Assembly (NCBI GenBank): GCA_030425045.1
Contig: JAUHVL010000002.1
Location: 1 to 64,000 of the forward strand
Length of the DNA stretch: 64,000 nucleotides
Reading direction: 5' to 3'
Source of the DNA: a bacterium
GTDB taxonomy: Bacteria; Bdellovibrionota; Bacteriovoracia; Bacteriovoracales; Bacteriovoracaceae
Shown: positions 33,655 through 57,755 of the stretch, in pieces
Layout of the letters: the number at the start of each line of letters is the position of its first letter
Position numbering within the stretch: position 1 is the first letter of the stretch
Made by a program: the position numbers and the translations under genes
The notes under the pieces: generated by a model
Databases searched by the model: none
The model's input: the letters and a program-made list of their open reading frames with translations, nothing else
Told to the model about the DNA's origin: nothing

Positions 33655-36600
33655 TTAAGAAGCTTCACTAAAAGAAGAGCTTTCACAGAGTTTAGAACTT
33701 ATTTTTTCTAAGCGATTGATCAGTTCAGAATAAGAAACAGAATCAAATGTTTCTTTTTTTGTAATTTCTTTACAGAATTGAGAATAATCATGGAGATAAA
33801 AGTTCACGACAGAAACTGAAAGCTCCCTTATGACTTTATCCGCCTGTTTCTTCTTACCCTTCTCAAAAGCATACGTTATGTCATCTCTCATACGACTGAG
33901 TTCTGTTATGAAGAGCTTTATACTTTCATCGAGAAATCTCTTATCATAACCAAAATCATTCTCTAATGAAGTCCAATTGATAAAATCATGATCAATTTCT
34001 TTATGCTCTTTCTTTTCAGTCTTTTCAAAATTTAATAAGAAGCTTGCAAGAGAATCAGGCATCAGTGGCTTTGACAAAAAATCATCCATACCAGATTGAT
34101 AACACCGATCGATATCACTTTTCATCGCACTTGCCGTGAGTGCAATAATAGATGGTCTTTCATGTCCAAATTTAGAAATAATCTTTTTGGTTGTTTCAAA
34201 ACCGTTCATTTCTGGCATATGGCAATCCATAAAAACCATATCATAATTATTTTTCTCAATTAGATCGATCGCTTCCTTTCCATTATTAATTGTTCTCACA
34301 TGACAACCAAGCTTACTCAGCATACCGTCAGCAATTTTTAAGTTAATTTCATTATCATCAACGACAAGCACATTAAAATTTATCTCACGATTTGATTTTA
34401 ACTCCTCAAAAGTTAGAACTTTAGAGTCTTGTGCCTCTGCTGGAGTAAATGGAACTTCAAAGTTGAAGGTCGTTCCTACTCCAAGAGTACTTTCTACAGA
34501 GATCTCTCCCCCCATCAGCTCGACAAGCTTTTTAGAAATCGACAGACCAAGGCCAGTTCCACCAAACTTTCTAGTTGTCGATGCATCGACCTGAGAGAAG
34601 TTCTTAAAGAGTTTTGAAATCCCCTCTTCGTCAATACCGATCCCTGTATCAGAGACACTTATTTTTAAACGCTCACCTTCAACTCCACAACGAATAGTAA
34701 CATTACCTTCTTTAGTGAACTTAATGGCATTACTCAAAAGATTATTTAGGACTTGTCTAAGCCTCGTGGGATCACCATGAATCCAAACTGGTAATCTCTC
34801 AGCTTTATCAACCTCTAAAAAAACACCATTTTCAGATGCCTTTACAGAAAATAAGGTATACTGCTCATCAAGCAATCGATGAAAATCAAAAGCAATATTT
34901 TCAATTTCAATTTTCCCTGCCTCTAACTTAGAAAAATCGAGAATATCATTGATAATAGTAAGGAGAGACTCTCCACAACTTTGGATAACCCCGAGCCTCT
35001 CTTTATCTTTATCTGACGTGAGATGATCTTTCATAATATTAGTCATCCCAATAATACCATTCATCGGTGTTCTAATTTCGTGACTCATATTCGCCAAGAA
35101 TTCTGACTTCATCTGCTCGGCATTTTCGGCCTTCACTTTTGCTGTGATCAACTCTTCTTGATTTTTATGAGATAAAATCATTCGTCCAACAATATCAGCA
35201 CAAGACTTTAAAAAAGAAATTTCGTCAGGATGTTGCTCTTGTCCTGGGAAAAGATCAAAAATCATCATACCGATAACTTCTTTATCATAGCGAATGGGAA
35301 TATTATAATGATCAGAGGGTAAATCACTCATTTGTGCTTCATCAAAAGATTTGAATGAACTCAGCTCATACGAAGAAGCGAGGACCAACTCTTCATTTTC
35401 AACAAGAAAAATTCCTCCCTTTTCCATAAAACTTAAAAAAGGTGCTTTCATGATAAAATTGACTGATCGATCTAGTTTTTCATTTAAATTAATATCTAGA
35501 CCACGAGGAATATTTAAAAGATTATTTAAAATATCTTTTTCTAATAAGTTTTGCTCAATTTTTAGATTTTGCTTTTTTCTTTCAGCAATCTGATCAGTAA
35601 TATCCATAATCGTCAAAACACAACAATCCCTGTCTTTGTAGTAAATTAATTGCATATCAACTTGAACATCGTAAAAAACGCCAATTTTTCTTCTATGGCG
35701 AGTGACAAACGTTTGCCTTTTAACTTCTCTCATCTGTAATAAGGTGACTTTTTCGCCATAACCTTTCACCCCAAGATCAGGACAAATTTCATCGAGAGTT
35801 ATCTTCTTAAATTCTTTTTGAGAGATACCTAAGTTATTAAGTGCCCCAGAGTTACAATAAACAGGTTTTAAATCAAAGCAATCGATAATAATAACTTCAT
35901 TAAGAGATTCTTTAATAATTTTACTCGTCGACAAAAGTTCTAACTCAAGAACTTTTCTCTCATGAATATCCTCAATACACCCAATCATCTTAACGGGCTC
36001 TTTATTTTTATACACAACTTCACCAGTTGATCTAAACCATCGATACTTTCCACCATTACAACGAAGTCTATGCTCTTGATCAAAAGGAATACTGTGATTT
36101 ACCTGCTGATCAATCGCATTCATTATGTGTTTTCGATCCATGGGATGAAGAATCTTTTCTAACGAATCTAATTTAAAATGCTTTTGGTCTTCACCTTTAA
36201 AACCTAATAGCTCCAAAAACTTTGGACTCCAACGATATTTTTTATCCTTGAGATCCACCATTTCCCAAATTCCAACCCCAGTCCCTTTTAAGGCACTGTC
36301 AAAAAGATTTCTCGTTTCTAAAATTGTCCAGGCATCTGAAACGAGCTTTTTCCCAAGAATAACGAGAAGTCCTGTCAAAACTAGAATCAAACTAAAAAAG
36401 AGATAAATCAATCCAGAAGCTTCTTTATCGACTCTTTTTTGGCTTTTACTAAAGGCGCGGCTAGAAATTTTTTCTAGCTCCAGTTCCAATTGCTCAAAAC
36501 CAATAAGTGCAGGAGTATCATCAACTTTTACAAATTTATCGAGCTCTTTTGCATTTAAGTTTGTTTGTTGATTTAAAGTTTGTATTTTCTTTTGATAACT

Positions 36601-36954
36601 CAAAACAACAGAATGAATAGAGGCCAATGCTTTAAATTCTTCTTGGGTGAGATCTTTAATCTGAGTATATTCTTTTAAATACTTTAACGTGTTATCAACT
36701 TTCTTTTCACTCGACTCTAAGTAAGAACGATCACGCCTAATCACGTAATTTTTAAAATCATGAATAAAGCCACCGTAACCCATATTGCTTTTGATATTGA
36801 AAAGAGCTCTCTCTCTTTTAACGACAGAGTTACCAATCCGACTCATTTCCACTTTAAAACTTCTGTTTTTTACGTAGAAATAATAAAAGACTGAGCCGCC
36901 AACAGCGGTCAAAAATAAGAATAAAGTGACTAATGTTATCTTGAGTTGTCTCAA
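33655..36954 (-). CDS. Hybrid sensor histidine kinase (PAS-PAS-GAF-HisKA-HATPase-REC-degenerate HPt)
   Basis: 1099 residues. Two membrane helices (about 5-27, 182-202) flank a periplasmic helical sensor. Then come two PAS domains (about 215-335, 340-455), a GAF-like domain (470-600), HisKA with His625 in ANMSHEIRTP, HATPase with NNLLSNAIKF and SDTGIGID, and a REC domain with Asp910 in VFMDCHMPEMNG. The C-terminal region (about 993-1090) looks like an HPt, but the place of the phosphoacceptor His reads IRELSV. The start is TTG, set unusually close to AAGGGA. No partner regulator is adjacent. Input signal unknown. Confidence 0.9.
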   Translation of the reverse strand: MRQLKITLVTLFLFLTAVGGSVFYYFYVKNRSFKVEMSRIGNSVVKRERALFNIKSNMGYGGFIHDFKNYVIRRDRSYLESSEKKVDNTLKYLKEYTQIKDLTQEEFKALASIHSVVLSYQKKIQTLNQQTNLNAKELDKFVKVDDTPALIGFEQLELELEKISSRAFSKSQKRVDKEASGLIYLFFSLILVLTGLLVILGKKLVSDAWTILETRNLFDSALKGTGVGIWEMVDLKDKKYRWSPKFLELLGFKGEDQKHFKLDSLEKILHPMDRKHIMNAIDQQVNHSIPFDQEHRLRCNGGKYRWFRSTGEVVYKNKEPVKMIGCIEDIHERKVLELELLSTSKIIKESLNEVIIIDCFDLKPVYCNSGALNNLGISQKEFKKITLDEICPDLGVKGYGEKVTLLQMREVKRQTFVTRHRRKIGVFYDVQVDMQLIYYKDRDCCVLTIMDITDQIAERKKQNLKIEQNLLEKDILNNLLNIPRGLDINLNEKLDRSVNFIMKAPFLSFMEKGGIFLVENEELVLASSYELSSFKSFDEAQMSDLPSDHYNIPIRYDKEVIGMMIFDLFPGQEQHPDEISFLKSCADIVGRMILSHKNQEELITAKVKAENAEQMKSEFLANMSHEIRTPMNGIIGMTNIMKDHLTSDKDKERLGVIQSCGESLLTIINDILDFSKLEAGKIEIENIAFDFHRLLDEQYTLFSVKASENGVFLEVDKAERLPVWIHGDPTRLRQVLNNLLSNAIKFTKEGNVTIRCGVEGERLKISVSDTGIGIDEEGISKLFKNFSQVDASTTRKFGGTGLGLSISKKLVELMGGEISVESTLGVGTTFNFEVPFTPAEAQDSKVLTFEELKSNREINFNVLVVDDNEINLKIADGMLSKLGCHVRTINNGKEAIDLIEKNNYDMVFMDCHMPEMNGFETTKKIISKFGHERPSIIALTASAMKSDIDRCYQSGMDDFLSKPLMPDSLASFLLNFEKTEKKEHKEIDHDFINWTSLENDFGYDKRFLDESIKLFITELSRMRDDITYAFEKGKKKQADKVIRELSVSVVNFYLHDYSQFCKEITKKETFDSVSYSELINRLEKISSKLCESSSFSEAS

Positions 36955-52728: not shown

Positions 52729-54159
52729 TTAGGCCGCTTTTTTAAAGCCAGTTCTGGTCATCTCTCCCCAATTCTTACTTCCTCTGAAGTAGCGCCACAT
52801 ACCTCGTAAACGCCAGAAAAGATTGATTTGATGATAGCCAAATTGCTCAAGTATAACACCGATAAAAAGCTTGAAATAATCTTTCATACCTTTGTATTTT
52901 CTAAAGGTGACTTCTTCAATAATGAGTGCCCCTAGAGTTAAGATCCATCCATAGAGCATTGAGACAACTAAGAATGTTGTGGCAACCTCTGTACTAATCA
53001 CCCCTAGTGAAAAGCCAATAATGGTCACGATATAACCAAACAACTCAATGGGAGCTGATAAGAGCTCAAAAAGAAGAAGATAAGGAAGGGCGATATTTCC
53101 AATAACTCCCGACCATGGACGAAAGAGCATTCGTCTACTGATCCACATCCCTTCCATTAAGCCTTGTTGCCACCTTGAACGCTGTTTTCCGAGTACGCTA
53201 AAACTTGAAGGAACCTCAGTCCAACAAACCGGATCGGGTAAAAACCTCACTTGGTACTTTCGTTTTCTTTTTAAGTAATGTTCGTGAATTCGCAATAATA
53301 ATTCGAGATCTTCACCAATAGTGTTGGTTCCGTAACCACCAACTTCAATGATGGCCTTCTTTTTAAAAAGTCCAAACGCTCCACTAATAATGGTTGTCGC
53401 ATTGATATAATCCCATCCCATGCGGCCAACAAGAAAGGCCCTCAAATATTCGACGATCTGAATAAGAGATAAATAACTCCAACCAACGGTCACCTTTTGT
53501 ACCCGCCCGTGTTCGACTTTGGTATTATTGACGACTCTGATCGTTCCCCCTACAGCAAGCATCTCTGCTGGATTTTCAAAAAAGGGATAGGATAACTGGA
53601 CAAGGCCATTTTCATCTAAAATGGTATCAGAGTCGATACAGCAAACCAGAGGAAAGTTAGAGAAGTTTATCGCTGTATTAAGAGCGTCTGCTTTTCCTCC
53701 ATTCTCTTTATCTACCACAAAGAGGTTGGGATAATTTTTAGAAACATATGTTGCTTTAATTTCTTTTGTTGGAAGAACTTTTGGTGGGTTATAAAAAACA
53801 CTTTGAAGATTAAACTCACTTTTCAGCTTCTCAATCGTAGTATCTTTACTTCCGTCATTAACAACAATCACTTCAAAGTTGGGATAATTGAGTCTTAAAA
53901 GAGAATAGACAGACTCACAAACGGTCGCTTCTTCATTATAGGCGGGAACTAAGATACTGATTGGTTTTAATAAATCTGTAACGGAGTTGAGAGAGGCACT
54001 CTGCTGTTCTGAGTGAAGAAACCTTTTCCTTGAATTCACCAAACCGAGAATTAAAATGACAAGATAACTAGAGTTAGCAATAAATAAATAAAGAATAGCA
54101 AAAATTTCAAAGCGTAGGATAAAATTGTAAAAGAGTTCTTGTAAAAGCTCATGCGACAT
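52729..54159 (-). CDS. Membrane glycosyltransferase family 2 (processive type)
   Basis: About 476 residues. An N-terminal helix precedes the GT2 domain with SILVPAYNEEATV, VVNDGSKDTT, CIDSDTILDENG (DxD), GTNTIGEDLELL (catalytic ED) and QRSRWQQG (QxxRW). Three to four C-terminal helices follow, the layout of PgaC/BcsA-like polysaccharide synthases. The GTG at 54183 is upstream, but ATG 54159 is the better start. It is the last gene of a response regulator-HEAT-GT2 operon, overlapping the HEAT gene by 11 bases. The polymer is unknown. Confidence 0.9.
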   Translation of the reverse strand: MSHELLQELFYNFILRFEIFAILYLFIANSSYLVILILGLVNSRKRFLHSEQQSASLNSVTDLLKPISILVPAYNEEATVCESVYSLLRLNYPNFEVIVVNDGSKDTTIEKLKSEFNLQSVFYNPPKVLPTKEIKATYVSKNYPNLFVVDKENGGKADALNTAINFSNFPLVCCIDSDTILDENGLVQLSYPFFENPAEMLAVGGTIRVVNNTKVEHGRVQKVTVGWSYLSLIQIVEYLRAFLVGRMGWDYINATTIISGAFGLFKKKAIIEVGGYGTNTIGEDLELLLRIHEHYLKRKRKYQVRFLPDPVCWTEVPSSFSVLGKQRSRWQQGLMEGMWISRRMLFRPWSGVIGNIALPYLLLFELLSAPIELFGYIVTIIGFSLGVISTEVATTFLVVSMLYGWILTLGALIIEEVTFRKYKGMKDYFKLFIGVILEQFGYHQINLFWRLRGMWRYFRGSKNWGEMTRTGFKKAA

Positions 54160-55201
54160 AATTAGTCTCAACTTGTTCAACACTCAGTTCATGATGCAAT
54201 ATTTCTCGAGAGGGATGTCCGCTATCAATTAAAATTGATTCAATCTCATGATTACTTAAAGGTCTAAAGTTCATTAAAGCTTTACATGCAGCTGATCTCA
54301 CATGAAAGTTTTCTTCTTCAAGAAGAGATTTTAACATAGCATGTACTTCTTGATAATCATAAGAGTGCATAAGCTTTGCAATATAGATTTTCAAAATCCA
54401 TTCTTTTTGCCTTGCTAGAATTTTCATCAGCTTTAGTGTGCGCTCACTTTTGTACTGATCAAGGATTTTGAGGGCCATAATTTTATTTTCTAGCGGAGAC
54501 GAGTTTTTGACAGAGTGAAAAACTGTTTCATCGACATCTTCAACAGGAGAATAATAAATGGCCGTTAAGAGGGCCTCTTGAAACGATTCTTCTTCTACAC
54601 GTTCTAAGAGAAATTTCAATCCACCGGCATCAACTTTTCCATAGTACTTAAGAATATTAAATAATATCCCTTTCGAATAATCTTGATGTCCGTGAAAGAA
54701 GCTGAAGACGTAGGGAGCGGCCTTATTTTTATGGGTTTTAATCATATTAAATAGCACTGCCGTGGCAAAAAAAGTATCACGATGGGATAAAAACTGTTCG
54801 AGAAAGGCCAGAGGAAGAGCAATTCCCGTATCTTCGATTCTTCTAAGGGCCCGCAGGCGATCACTTCTTGAGTAGGAAAAAAGAAGTTTTTTATCTTTTT
54901 CAAGAAACCCCTTGTCTCTATAAAGCCTATCTAGTTCGAGGCGGTATTTGCCTTTGAAAGTTTTTGCATATTCCGCAAGAAACTGTTGGAAAGAAAAAGA
55001 ATCAGGAAAACTTACTTCTTTTTTCTCAATAAGAAATTTAATAATCTGTCTTCTCCAGATAACAATCTTACGTAGTTCCACTTTACGAGATAAATTTTTA
55101 AAGAATTTTATTTTGGTCGTGATTGTAAAAATTAAAAACAAGATGAAAACTTGAGCAAGAATAACTTTATTTACAAAATCTAATGTTAGACTAAGCTGCA
55201 T
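54149..55201 (-). CDS. Membrane-anchored HEAT-repeat protein
   Basis: 350 residues: an N-terminal membrane helix (about 8-28), then a basic stretch and alpha-helical repeats, e.g. RLRALRRIEDTGIALPLAFLEQFL and FHVRSAACKALMNFRPLSNHEIESIL, typical of HEAT/PBS-lyase repeats. It overlaps the response regulator gene by 11 bases at its start and the glycosyltransferase gene by 11 bases at its end. Likely a scaffold coupling regulator and synthase (inference). Confidence 0.75.
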   Translation of the reverse strand: MQLSLTLDFVNKVILAQVFILFLIFTITTKIKFFKNLSRKVELRKIVIWRRQIIKFLIEKKEVSFPDSFSFQQFLAEYAKTFKGKYRLELDRLYRDKGFLEKDKKLLFSYSRSDRLRALRRIEDTGIALPLAFLEQFLSHRDTFFATAVLFNMIKTHKNKAAPYVFSFFHGHQDYSKGILFNILKYYGKVDAGGLKFLLERVEEESFQEALLTAIYYSPVEDVDETVFHSVKNSSPLENKIMALKILDQYKSERTLKLMKILARQKEWILKIYIAKLMHSYDYQEVHAMLKSLLEEENFHVRSAACKALMNFRPLSNHEIESILIDSGHPSREILHHELSVEQVETNYVA

Positions 55202-55784
55202 TTGATTCTAAATTCCTTTTAATAATCAAAACCAATTCACTTAAATCGTAAGGTTTACCAATAAAATCGAGTGCTCCCATTTTTAGAGCATTCATTCTGT
55301 CGAGTTGATTACTTTTCGCGGAGCCCACGATTATTTTCGTTTCATTGATATCTATTTTCTTTTTTACTTTTTGAATAAATTCAAAGCCCGTCATTTCAGG
55401 CATCATGAGATCCACAAGAAGAAGGTCGTACTTCTTTTTTCCCATTTCAGCTAATGCATCGATGGCAGAAAGATAACTAACGACAGCGATATCATGCTTT
55501 TTAAAATAAAACTTTAACAAGTTTTGAGTATCTTGATCATCATCGATAATGGCCACAGAGTACATTGCTGATTCTTCTTCAAAAAGTGGCAAAGGAGGAA
55601 GCTCTTGTTCTTCTCGTCGATCAACTGAACTTGTCTCTAATGAATTTTTCAGATCGACAATAATTTCTCGCAAATTCTCAGCAACGACTAAATTATGAAA
55701 AGATAAATTCTCATCATCAAATTTAGACATTTCTGAAAATAAGTCATCTACTAGTTTAGAAGCATTTTTACTCTTCTTATTCAT
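55191..55784 (-). CDS. Response regulator receiver protein with N-terminal extension
   Basis: 197 residues: a helical N-terminal extension (1-70), then one REC domain with the acidic pocket IIDDDQD (79-85), phosphoacceptor Asp125 in LLVDLMMPEMTG and the switch lysine in FIGKPYD. There is no output domain, so it must signal by protein contact, as in chemotaxis-type single-domain regulators. It heads the HEAT-GT2 operon, suggesting it controls polysaccharide synthesis. No cognate kinase is adjacent. Confidence 0.87.
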   Translation of the reverse strand: MNKKSKNASKLVDDLFSEMSKFDDENLSFHNLVVAENLREIIVDLKNSLETSSVDRREEQELPPLPLFEEESAMYSVAIIDDDQDTQNLLKFYFKKHDIAVVSYLSAIDALAEMGKKKYDLLLVDLMMPEMTGFEFIQKVKKKIDINETKIIVGSAKSNQLDRMNALKMGALDFIGKPYDLSELVLIIKRNLESNAA

Positions 55785-55876: not shown

Positions 55877-57250
55877 TTAAAGAACAAACTCTTCATTCGC
55901 TTTAGCTATTGTGGTGACCAAACCTAACTGACTTTCAAGAATGACTTTTAAATGGGCCGAGGCCATTTTTTCTCCATGATTTAAGATAGTTAAACGAGGG
56001 TTAATATCAGAGCTCTCTATCCAATCAATTAAGTCAAGATAATCAGCATGGGCCGAAAGAGAATTGAGATAGAATACACTGGCCTCTACAGGAAATACTT
56101 CTTTATGAAGGCGAAGTTTCTTTTCCCCATCCATTAAAATTCTTCCCTTTGTTCCCTTTGGTTGAAAACCAACAAGAATCACACCATTTTTCTTATCACT
56201 GATACGTTTCTTTACATGATGAACAACTCTTCCTCCATCAAGCATCCCAGAAGCACTAATCACAATAAGGGGACCTTCTTCTTCAGTTAGGGCCTTAGAA
56301 TCCTCCACTGTTTCAATTTCTTTAAATGAATATGGATAAATACTTCCCTCATCAAGTACTTCTTGTTTTACAAATTGAGGGTTCATACATTTATTAAAAA
56401 TGGCATTGGCCTTTCTTGAAAGAGGACTATCTAAATAAACAGGGACCAGAGGAATTTTTTTATCCTTTATCAACTCTTTCACCAAATAAAGAATATCTTG
56501 AGTCCTTCCCACTGAAAAAGAAGGAATAATTGCGACTCCTCCTCTTTTTAAAATCGTATTGAGATAAATTCCTAGAACTTCTTTTGCAGGAATTCTAGAA
56601 TGAAGTTTATCACCATAAGTAGACTCAAGAATGAGATAATCTACACGACTTAGGGGCTCAGGTGGTGTGAGTAAAATATTTCTTTTGTGGCCGACATCAC
56701 CTGAAAAAATAAGACTTTTTTCTTCGTTTTTATCCCTTACTTTTAAATTAACAAAACTCGCTCCAATAATATGCCCTGCCCAATGAAAACTTGCCTTTAG
56801 GTTTTCTGACACATGAAACATTTCTCCTAATTCCACTTCTTCCATCAGTGAGCAAATTTCAGCAACCTCTTCTTGACTGGTCAAAGGAAGAGCCGGTTTA
56901 TGGCGTGAGTACTGTTTACGATTTGCATACTCAGCATCTTCAGCATGAATTTTTGCAGAGTCTTCCAAAAGGATTTGAGCGAGTTTTTTTGTATCTTTAG
57001 TGCAGTATACTTTTCCTCTAAAACCATCTCTCCATAACCTTGGAAGTAAACCGCAATGATCAATATGAGCGTGAGTGAGAAAGACAGCGTTGATATCACT
57101 TGCTTCTTTTAAAGTTTCCCAGTTACGCTCTCTACTTTTTGAAGACCCCTGAAAAAGCCCATAATCGACAAGGTACTTTTCATTATCTACTTCTAATAAT
57201 GTTTTAGAGCCTGTCACTTCTTCTGAAGCTCCAATAAACTTTAACTTCAT
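55877..57250 (-). CDS. Metallo-beta-lactamase/beta-CASP RNA-processing nuclease
   Basis: 457 residues. Motifs: FLTHAHIDHCG (metal-binding HxHxDH), SGDVGHKRN, LILESTYGD, the beta-CASP region with IPSFSVGRTQDIL, VISASGMLDGGRVVHHV, and LSAHADYLDLIDWI, LNHGE near the end. This is the YSH1/CPSF73-like branch of bacterial beta-CASP proteins, probably an RNA endonuclease, with RMMBL domain. It is followed on the same transcript by nothing; upstream is the 164-residue gene 10 bases away. Confidence 0.92.
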   Translation of the reverse strand: MKLKFIGASEEVTGSKTLLEVDNEKYLVDYGLFQGSSKSRERNWETLKEASDINAVFLTHAHIDHCGLLPRLWRDGFRGKVYCTKDTKKLAQILLEDSAKIHAEDAEYANRKQYSRHKPALPLTSQEEVAEICSLMEEVELGEMFHVSENLKASFHWAGHIIGASFVNLKVRDKNEEKSLIFSGDVGHKRNILLTPPEPLSRVDYLILESTYGDKLHSRIPAKEVLGIYLNTILKRGGVAIIPSFSVGRTQDILYLVKELIKDKKIPLVPVYLDSPLSRKANAIFNKCMNPQFVKQEVLDEGSIYPYSFKEIETVEDSKALTEEEGPLIVISASGMLDGGRVVHHVKKRISDKKNGVILVGFQPKGTKGRILMDGEKKLRLHKEVFPVEASVFYLNSLSAHADYLDLIDWIESSDINPRLTILNHGEKMASAHLKVILESQLGLVTTIAKANEEFVL

Positions 57251-57260
57251 GGTTAACCTT

Positions 57261-57755
57261 CTAAATAAAAATATCCGTTAGCTCTTCTAACCAACTGGCA
57301 TGTTTATTTCTTAATTCAAAATAATCTTCAAAGTGGTGAGTTGATTCTCTTAAAATTTCCTTATCCTTAGATTTAAACTCAGGAAAATCCCAGTTGATTA
57401 AAGCCTGACAATGAATCTTATTTTCTTTTAACGTGGAATTAAGTTCTAATCGAATTGAAATTTCTTTTGATCTAGGCCCTGGATACTCTTTACATAAATC
57501 GATAAGAGCTGCTTTAACTTCTTTATTCTTCCACTTAAGAGCTTCAAGTATATCGTTCTCAGTAGACTCAACCCAAAACTTGTGCCCTTCTAAAAGGCAA
57601 TTTATATTTTGATTTTCGCTAGTTTCTAAATACCGATAAGCAAAGTTTTCTAAATTATGAATAATTAAATTGGCTGGTCCCTCTTCTTTTAGATTTTCCT
57701 GAATCTTTTCACGCATTTTTTTCGCTAATTCTTCTTTGGAAAGGTCTTCATACAT
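57261..57755 (-). CDS. Hypothetical cytosolic protein upstream of the beta-CASP nuclease
   Basis: 164 residues, acidic, no signal or membrane segment, no family recognised. A GGAG site precedes the ATG. The gene ends 10 bases before the nuclease start and is likely cotranscribed with it, so a partner role in RNA processing is possible but unsupported by motifs. It is divergent from a small gene at 57783. Confidence 0.65.
   Translation of the reverse strand: MYEDLSKEELAKKMREKIQENLKEEGPANLIIHNLENFAYRYLETSENQNINCLLEGHKFWVESTENDILEALKWKNKEVKAALIDLCKEYPGPRSKEISIRLELNSTLKENKIHCQALINWDFPEFKSKDKEILRESTHHFEDYFELRNKHASWLEELTDIFI

Follow-up and report, generated by a model that had tools for sequence, protein, structure and literature searches.

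A recurrent gene block of a stand-alone receiver, a HEAT-repeat protein and a synthase-type glycosyltransferase, with a possible role in phosphorelay control of polysaccharide synthesis

Organisation of the locus

Examination of the window, by which we mean the whole 64,000-nucleotide stretch of DNA analysed here, revealed three overlapping genes on one strand (Table 1). The reading frames and the Pfam assignments agree on a receiver-only response regulator (RR), a putatively membrane-anchored HEAT protein and a GT2 glycosyltransferase (GT), as the initial annotation had claimed. An in-frame ATG at 54159 provides an alternative start for the GT gene and a product of 476 aa.

Table 1. Position of the three genes and of their overlaps in the window.
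Feature	Position	Strand	Length	Basis
Stand-alone receiver (RR)	55191..55784	minus	197 aa	Pfam PF00072
HEAT protein, predicted membrane-anchored	54149..55201	minus	350 aa	HEAT_2, AlphaFold model, hydrophobicity
Synthase-type GT2	52729..54183	minus	484 aa from GTG	Pfam GT2 families
RR/HEAT reading-frame overlap	55191..55201	minus	11 nt	
HEAT/GT overlap	54149..54183	minus	35 nt from GTG; 11 nt from ATG 54159	

A gene for a beta-CASP metallo-beta-lactamase RNase-like protein (55877-57250, minus) lies 92 bases upstream of the receiver gene, a gap that the operon may or may not span. Its nearest NCBIfam models are type VII CRISPR Cas14 (364.5 of 800 bits) and aCPSF1 (275.9 of 580.2), and it is preceded by a gene for a 164-aa protein (57261-57755, minus) with no family match over cut-off. 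The promoter and terminator scan returned 20 promoter-like sites against 16.0 (sd 3.9) in shuffled sequences and 6 terminator-like sites against 3.6 (sd 2.1).

According to the ORF list and Pfam, the trio in the window has no kinase, Hpt, outer-membrane barrel or sulfatase-fold gene next to it, and a profile search of the window's own genome gave no match to YaiO (PF19413). Eight Hpt domains over cut-off are encoded elsewhere in that genome, and a hybrid histidine kinase (PAS, HisKA, HATPase, receiver) at 33655-36954 of the window, minus strand, may be a partner of the receiver in trans. Between 49010 and 50308 (minus) the window also encodes a glycine-rich, secreted-looking protein in which an HExxH-type motif was seen by eye, possibly a metalloprotease. 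The same genome contains another HEAT-GT pair that has no receiver (L102, G000:C62:1500-15500) and is flanked by genes for a two-CBS-domain protein upstream and a 639-aa DUF3485-domain protein downstream.

Domain content and predicted functions

The only Pfam domain of the window RR is Response_reg (residues 77-188 of 197; 83.8 bits, cut-off 30.2), with no output domain after it and no Pfam match in the 75-residue N-terminal extension. Asp125, the residue that the initial annotation had singled out for mutation, occupies the phospho-acceptor column; together with Asp82 and Lys177 it is invariant in all 24 rows of the receiver alignment. Ser155 is the switch residue, its position read by eye. 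The protein thus combines the acidic pocket, phospho-acceptor aspartate and lysine of a single-domain response regulator with the absence of an output domain. The 24-row alignment omits the receiver of L134, which is cut by a contig end.

HEAT_2 scored just over its Pfam cut-off in the second protein (30.6 bits against 27.7). In its AlphaFold model (pLDDT 89.2) a long helix at the N-terminus leads into an alpha-solenoid, and the best PDB matches in a fold search were designed armadillo proteins, importin-alpha and the PP2A scaffold, so that both the domain match and the fold are those of a HEAT repeat protein. The alpha-solenoid is a fold typical of protein docking. A hydrophobic segment lies near residue 9, with seven Lys/Arg residues after it and none before; because the basic residues follow this segment, the solenoid should be cytoplasmic, which supports a predicted topology with an N-terminal membrane anchor and a cytoplasmic C-terminus. 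Such a segment, scoring at least 1.6, was found in 37 of 39 HEAT proteins, the two below the threshold being those of L124 (1.54) and L149 (a split frame).

The window GT matches Glycos_transf_2 (80.2 bits against a cut-off of 23.3). Residues D102, D106, D176, D178, E283-D284 and Q326-R327-R329-W330 (ATG numbering), which we take to be the GT-A aspartate motifs, the ED base motif and the Q(Q/R)xRW motif of synthase-type GT2s, are invariant in all 36 aligned rows. In the AlphaFold model (pLDDT 91.3) a GT-A domain lies between N- and C-terminal membrane helices; the top PDB matches were hyaluronan synthases (E 2e-16), then BcsA and cellulose/chitin synthases, and the search also returned structures of a synthase:pEtN transferase complex. 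Both marks of a synthase-type GT2, the motifs and a hyaluronan synthase/BcsA fold with flanking helices, are therefore present, and the enzyme probably polymerises a sugar and threads the polymer through the inner membrane. Two narrower assignments were rejected: the PNAG synthase PgaC/IcaA (TIGR03937; 152.7 bits against a cut-off of 422.3) and the cellulose synthase CelA (TIGR03030; 57.3 against 699.1). PilZ, by which a c-di-GMP-controlled synthase would be recognised, found no Pfam match in the window RR, HEAT or GT protein.

Recurrence in other genomes

Used alone as query, the window HEAT protein reached just 2 of 59 genomes, one of them its own; it was replaced by the GT as bait and later by a HEAT profile. 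The search for the trio that the initial annotation had suggested as a check revealed that the gene block recurs in distant bacteria. It is widespread, hence not peculiar to the window, and because of this recurrence the adjacency of the three window genes is, on genome comparison, far beyond chance.

In a sample of Flavobacteriaceae (the family of Mesonia), the GT bait found a close GT in 17 of 60 genomes, at 18 places. A HEAT gene lies directly upstream of the GT in all 18, and a stand-alone receiver precedes it in 15 (14 directly, one with a YaiO gene between). If a receiver were expected at 0.5-2% per place, 15 or more of 18 would have a chance of 2e-32 to 3e-23, a figure that ignores the relatedness of the genomes. 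At the remaining three places, the receiver is downstream in the cluster (L156), absent (L155) or divergent (L169); the last is a 115-aa receiver-like frame directly upstream, with E 0.0019 in Pfam, below cut-off, and E 5e-9 with a trio-receiver profile. In the same 60 genomes the HEAT profile (E <= 1e-15) found 19 places, 18 of them beside the GT, the nineteenth being the weakest (4e-23). Long HEAT variants of 859-985 aa occur in several members of the family.

Some of the loci described in this section went into the HEAT profile, which inflates their E-values; an independent test is provided by 15 new places in Bacteroidota, the phylum of Mesonia. There, the profile (E <= 1e-40) matched in 16 of 148 genomes at 18 places, three of them already known. 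A GT follows HEAT directly at all 15 new places, and a receiver lies directly upstream at 10, elsewhere in the cluster at three (L213, L215 and the second copy in L206) and was not seen at two (L209, L217). In most Bacteroidota places the receiver stands immediately before HEAT, and in many of them the two frames overlap slightly or are a few bases apart.

In the window's own phylum the profile (E <= 1e-15) found 26 places in 22 of 290 genomes. All 16 of the strongest (E <= 7e-69) are beside a related GT, as is at least one (G054:C19) of the 10 weaker ones, and a stand-alone receiver lies upstream in eight of the 16 (the window, L124, L125, L128, L129, L131, L134 and L140). Four of these eight loci have one or more small ORFs between RR and HEAT, the main one encoding a protein that we call barrel-like after a weak partial match to YaiO (profile comparison, probability 91.9, 87 columns); no barrel-like protein passes the Pfam YaiO cut-off, one reaching 14.3 of 23.9 bits. 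HEAT-GT pairs with no nearby receiver make up the other eight places, which include the window genome's own paralogue L102 and L127, whose upstream side is cut by a contig end, and are also found in Bacteroidota (L155, L209, L217, L035, L149), so the receiver is not obligatory. In a sample of the phylum of G315, labelled Myxococcota through L033 in the tree, the profile (E <= 1e-40) matched in none of 148 genomes, a zero that says little since G315, which has a HEAT-GT pair (L033), was missed at the same threshold. The GT places in G116 and G102 were covered as short loci only.

In the GT tree, a starred branch (98) separates the HEAT-neighboured GTs from 15 others, which belong to the window's own family and lack a HEAT gene; most of these have a small barrel-like gene in its place. 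The HEAT side holds five GTs without HEAT (L111, L136-L139), and presence of the receiver changes several times across the tree. This pattern points to HEAT and GT as the core, to which a receiver is often but not always attached. The tree omits L152 and L153, which repeat the genes of L035 and L033, the distant GTs of L115-L117, and L140, whose GT runs into a contig end; the L103 GT was cut to 470 aa for it.

Some GT loci have other partners. The L103 GT2 frame (L103:5401-8229) is 942 aa long; its relatives L104 and L105 have instead a GT gene and, after it, a distinct gene for a 435-438-aa protein of no clear family. Related GT2s in L136, L137, L138 and L139 are preceded by an 821-869-aa protein in place of HEAT, which in L137 contains a CBM30-like domain. 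Directly before a more distant GT2, L116 encodes a 305-aa protein with an N-terminal receiver and a C-terminal half of no assigned family (L116:4418-5335), possibly another receiver-GT coupling.

In the alignment the window receiver shares 23-33% identity with the other trio receivers, in which its 75-residue extension is missing or short. A single origin for all trio receivers was considered and set aside: the receiver tree gave several groups, with the window receiver outside them at weak support, and common descent is not claimed. In this same weak tree, trio receivers are the closest rows to the window receiver in both path and identity. The window's 3.97-Mb genome has 36 receiver matches, 10 of them in frames of 210 aa or less; 29 of the 36 supplied the own-genome receivers of the tree, some of which were read twice because their loci overlap.

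Phosphorelay and envelope genes near the block

Receiver, Hpt, hybrid kinase and outer-membrane genes frequently lie together with the HEAT-GT pair in relatives. L129 has the order RR, barrel-like, HEAT, GT, Hpt and hybrid kinase, and L150 the order hybrid kinase, Hpt, RR, HEAT and GT. The order of L150 is repeated in L151, with a receiver+Hpt protein in the middle, and in L212, where the middle gene falls outside the Hpt scan. An Hpt gene precedes RR in L140 and L161, as do Hpt frames in L165 and L166 (the latter at 24.5 of 24.6 bits), and a hybrid kinase gene lies directly before RR in L158, L159, L162, L164, L168, L211, L214, L216 and L218.

Downstream in Bacteroidota loci are genes for an approximately 800-aa protein with a sulfatase domain, presumably LtaS-like, and TPRs (L158), and for a TPR protein with a YaiO outer-membrane barrel; on frames of about 740-1013 aa, the YaiO label is probably due to the profile's TPR part. 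GT frames reach 1134-1260 aa in L209, L214, L216 and L218, and in L209 and L214 their C-terminal part resembles, by eye, the approximately 800-aa sulfatase-fold protein. Such a fusion of GT and sulfatase fold points to joint action.

Discussion

We infer direct, non-transcriptional control of the synthase as the best reading of the comparative data, because the receiver lacks an output domain, HEAT and GT are linked, and kinase and Hpt genes are often in the same run. In the mechanism that we propose, the trio would form the core, under signal control, of a synthase-dependent polysaccharide machine, in which the GT2 would polymerise and export the sugar chain. HEAT would be a partner dedicated to this GT, held in the membrane by a single N-terminal helix, with its solenoid in the cytoplasm beside the catalytic domain of the GT. 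A phosphorelay would run from a hybrid kinase through Hpt to the stand-alone receiver as its end point; the receiver would dock on HEAT, and its phosphorylation would change the HEAT-GT complex and so gate synthesis without transcription. In the window, the divergent receiver may have this function too, its kinase and Hpt being encoded at other sites of the genome. We consider this gating by phosphorylation state the best explanation of the trio and hold it with moderate confidence, while the HEAT-GT pairs with no nearby receiver, the position of the window receiver outside the trio-receiver groups of a weak tree, the lack of an adjacent kinase, Hpt or barrel gene in the window and the absence of YaiO from its genome count against it.

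An unlikely but still credible alternative is that the genes form a co-transcribed envelope module whose receiver acts elsewhere, as a phosphate sink or through a partner that controls transcription, motility or another machine, HEAT being a constitutive factor for assembly or stability of the GT. HEAT-GT pairs without a receiver are indeed common, and output-less receivers can be phosphate sinks, as PMC12802240 describes for Myxococcus DifD, but the immediate succession of receiver and HEAT in most Bacteroidota places, across many genomes and with such short overlaps or gaps, argues against this. Rather improbable, in our view, is a role of HEAT as a spatial scaffold that places the GT at a pole, at gliding or division machinery, or near periplasmic or outer-membrane parts, with the receiver setting where and not whether synthesis occurs. 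The docking-type solenoid, its single anchor helix and the long flavobacterial variants would fit such a role, but no observation points to localisation in particular, and the solenoid is predicted to be cytoplasmic, away from envelope partners. That the window receiver is an unrelated newcomer with no functional link to the pair would accord with its low identity, its extension and its place outside the trio-receiver groups, but is very improbable given frames that overlap on one strand in the order found in relatives, nearest tree rows that are trio receivers, and a chance of such placement estimated, from the 10 of 36 receivers in short frames, at the order of 1 in 200 or less.

Returning to gating by phosphorylation, the relatives would extend it to a widespread, undescribed class, which we put forward tentatively: a complete hybrid kinase-Hpt-receiver phosphorelay would act through a membrane-anchored HEAT receptor to gate a GT2 after translation, some versions having the GT2 fused to an LtaS-like transferase and a TPR/YaiO outer-membrane barrel at their end. 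The view of the initial annotation that no system with this trio had been described agrees with our search of open-access papers, which gave no description, but the trio itself is common in genomes. What is known of the control of polysaccharide synthases after translation concerns mainly c-di-GMP, and to our knowledge single-domain response regulators rarely have known targets. The operon offers a defined receiver, a candidate receptor in HEAT and a candidate effector enzyme as neighbours in many Flavobacteriaceae, so that both questions are accessible to experiment in tractable organisms; the frequency of the trio in this family gives it a high value for follow-up.

Comparison with known systems

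Hyaluronan, chitin and cellulose synthases are the best structural matches of the window GT and share its QRxRW-type motif; they differ from it in sequence, with about 17% identity, and the PgaC and CelA cut-offs were far from reached. Among c-di-GMP-controlled synthases are those with the PilZ domain of BcsA, with Alg44 and with PgaC/PgaD, and in E. coli the Bcs system includes BcsG, an alkaline-phosphatase-fold transferase. The present block resembles them in associating an inner-membrane GT2 and a regulatory domain or partner with a TPR/outer-membrane barrel and, as in E. coli Bcs, an alkaline-phosphatase-fold transferase, but PilZ is absent from the window GT and HEAT, and the linked input is a phosphorelay receiver with HEAT. 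By its gene content the operon looks like a synthase-dependent secretion system with a phosphorelay in place of c-di-GMP; if this is true, phosphorelay and HEAT would fill the place held by c-di-GMP and PilZ in cellulose secretion.

Control of polysaccharide synthases by c-di-GMP is stated as a general mechanism in PMC12802240, which also describes the nearest proven case to the one proposed here. In Myxococcus xanthus the phosphorylated single-domain response regulator EpsW raises polysaccharide synthesis after translation by contacting EpsZ, the initiating phosphoglycosyl transferase of a Wzx/Wzy pathway, and the kinase is chemosensory (PMC12802240). The enzyme class differs, a large monotopic phosphoglycosyl transferase there and a GT2 here; the available text of that paper describes no HEAT protein, whereas HEAT is the partner here, and the chemosensory kinase contrasts with the hybrid kinase and Hpt genes of the trio relatives. 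EpsW nevertheless provides a precedent for direct control of a polysaccharide enzyme by a single-domain response regulator.
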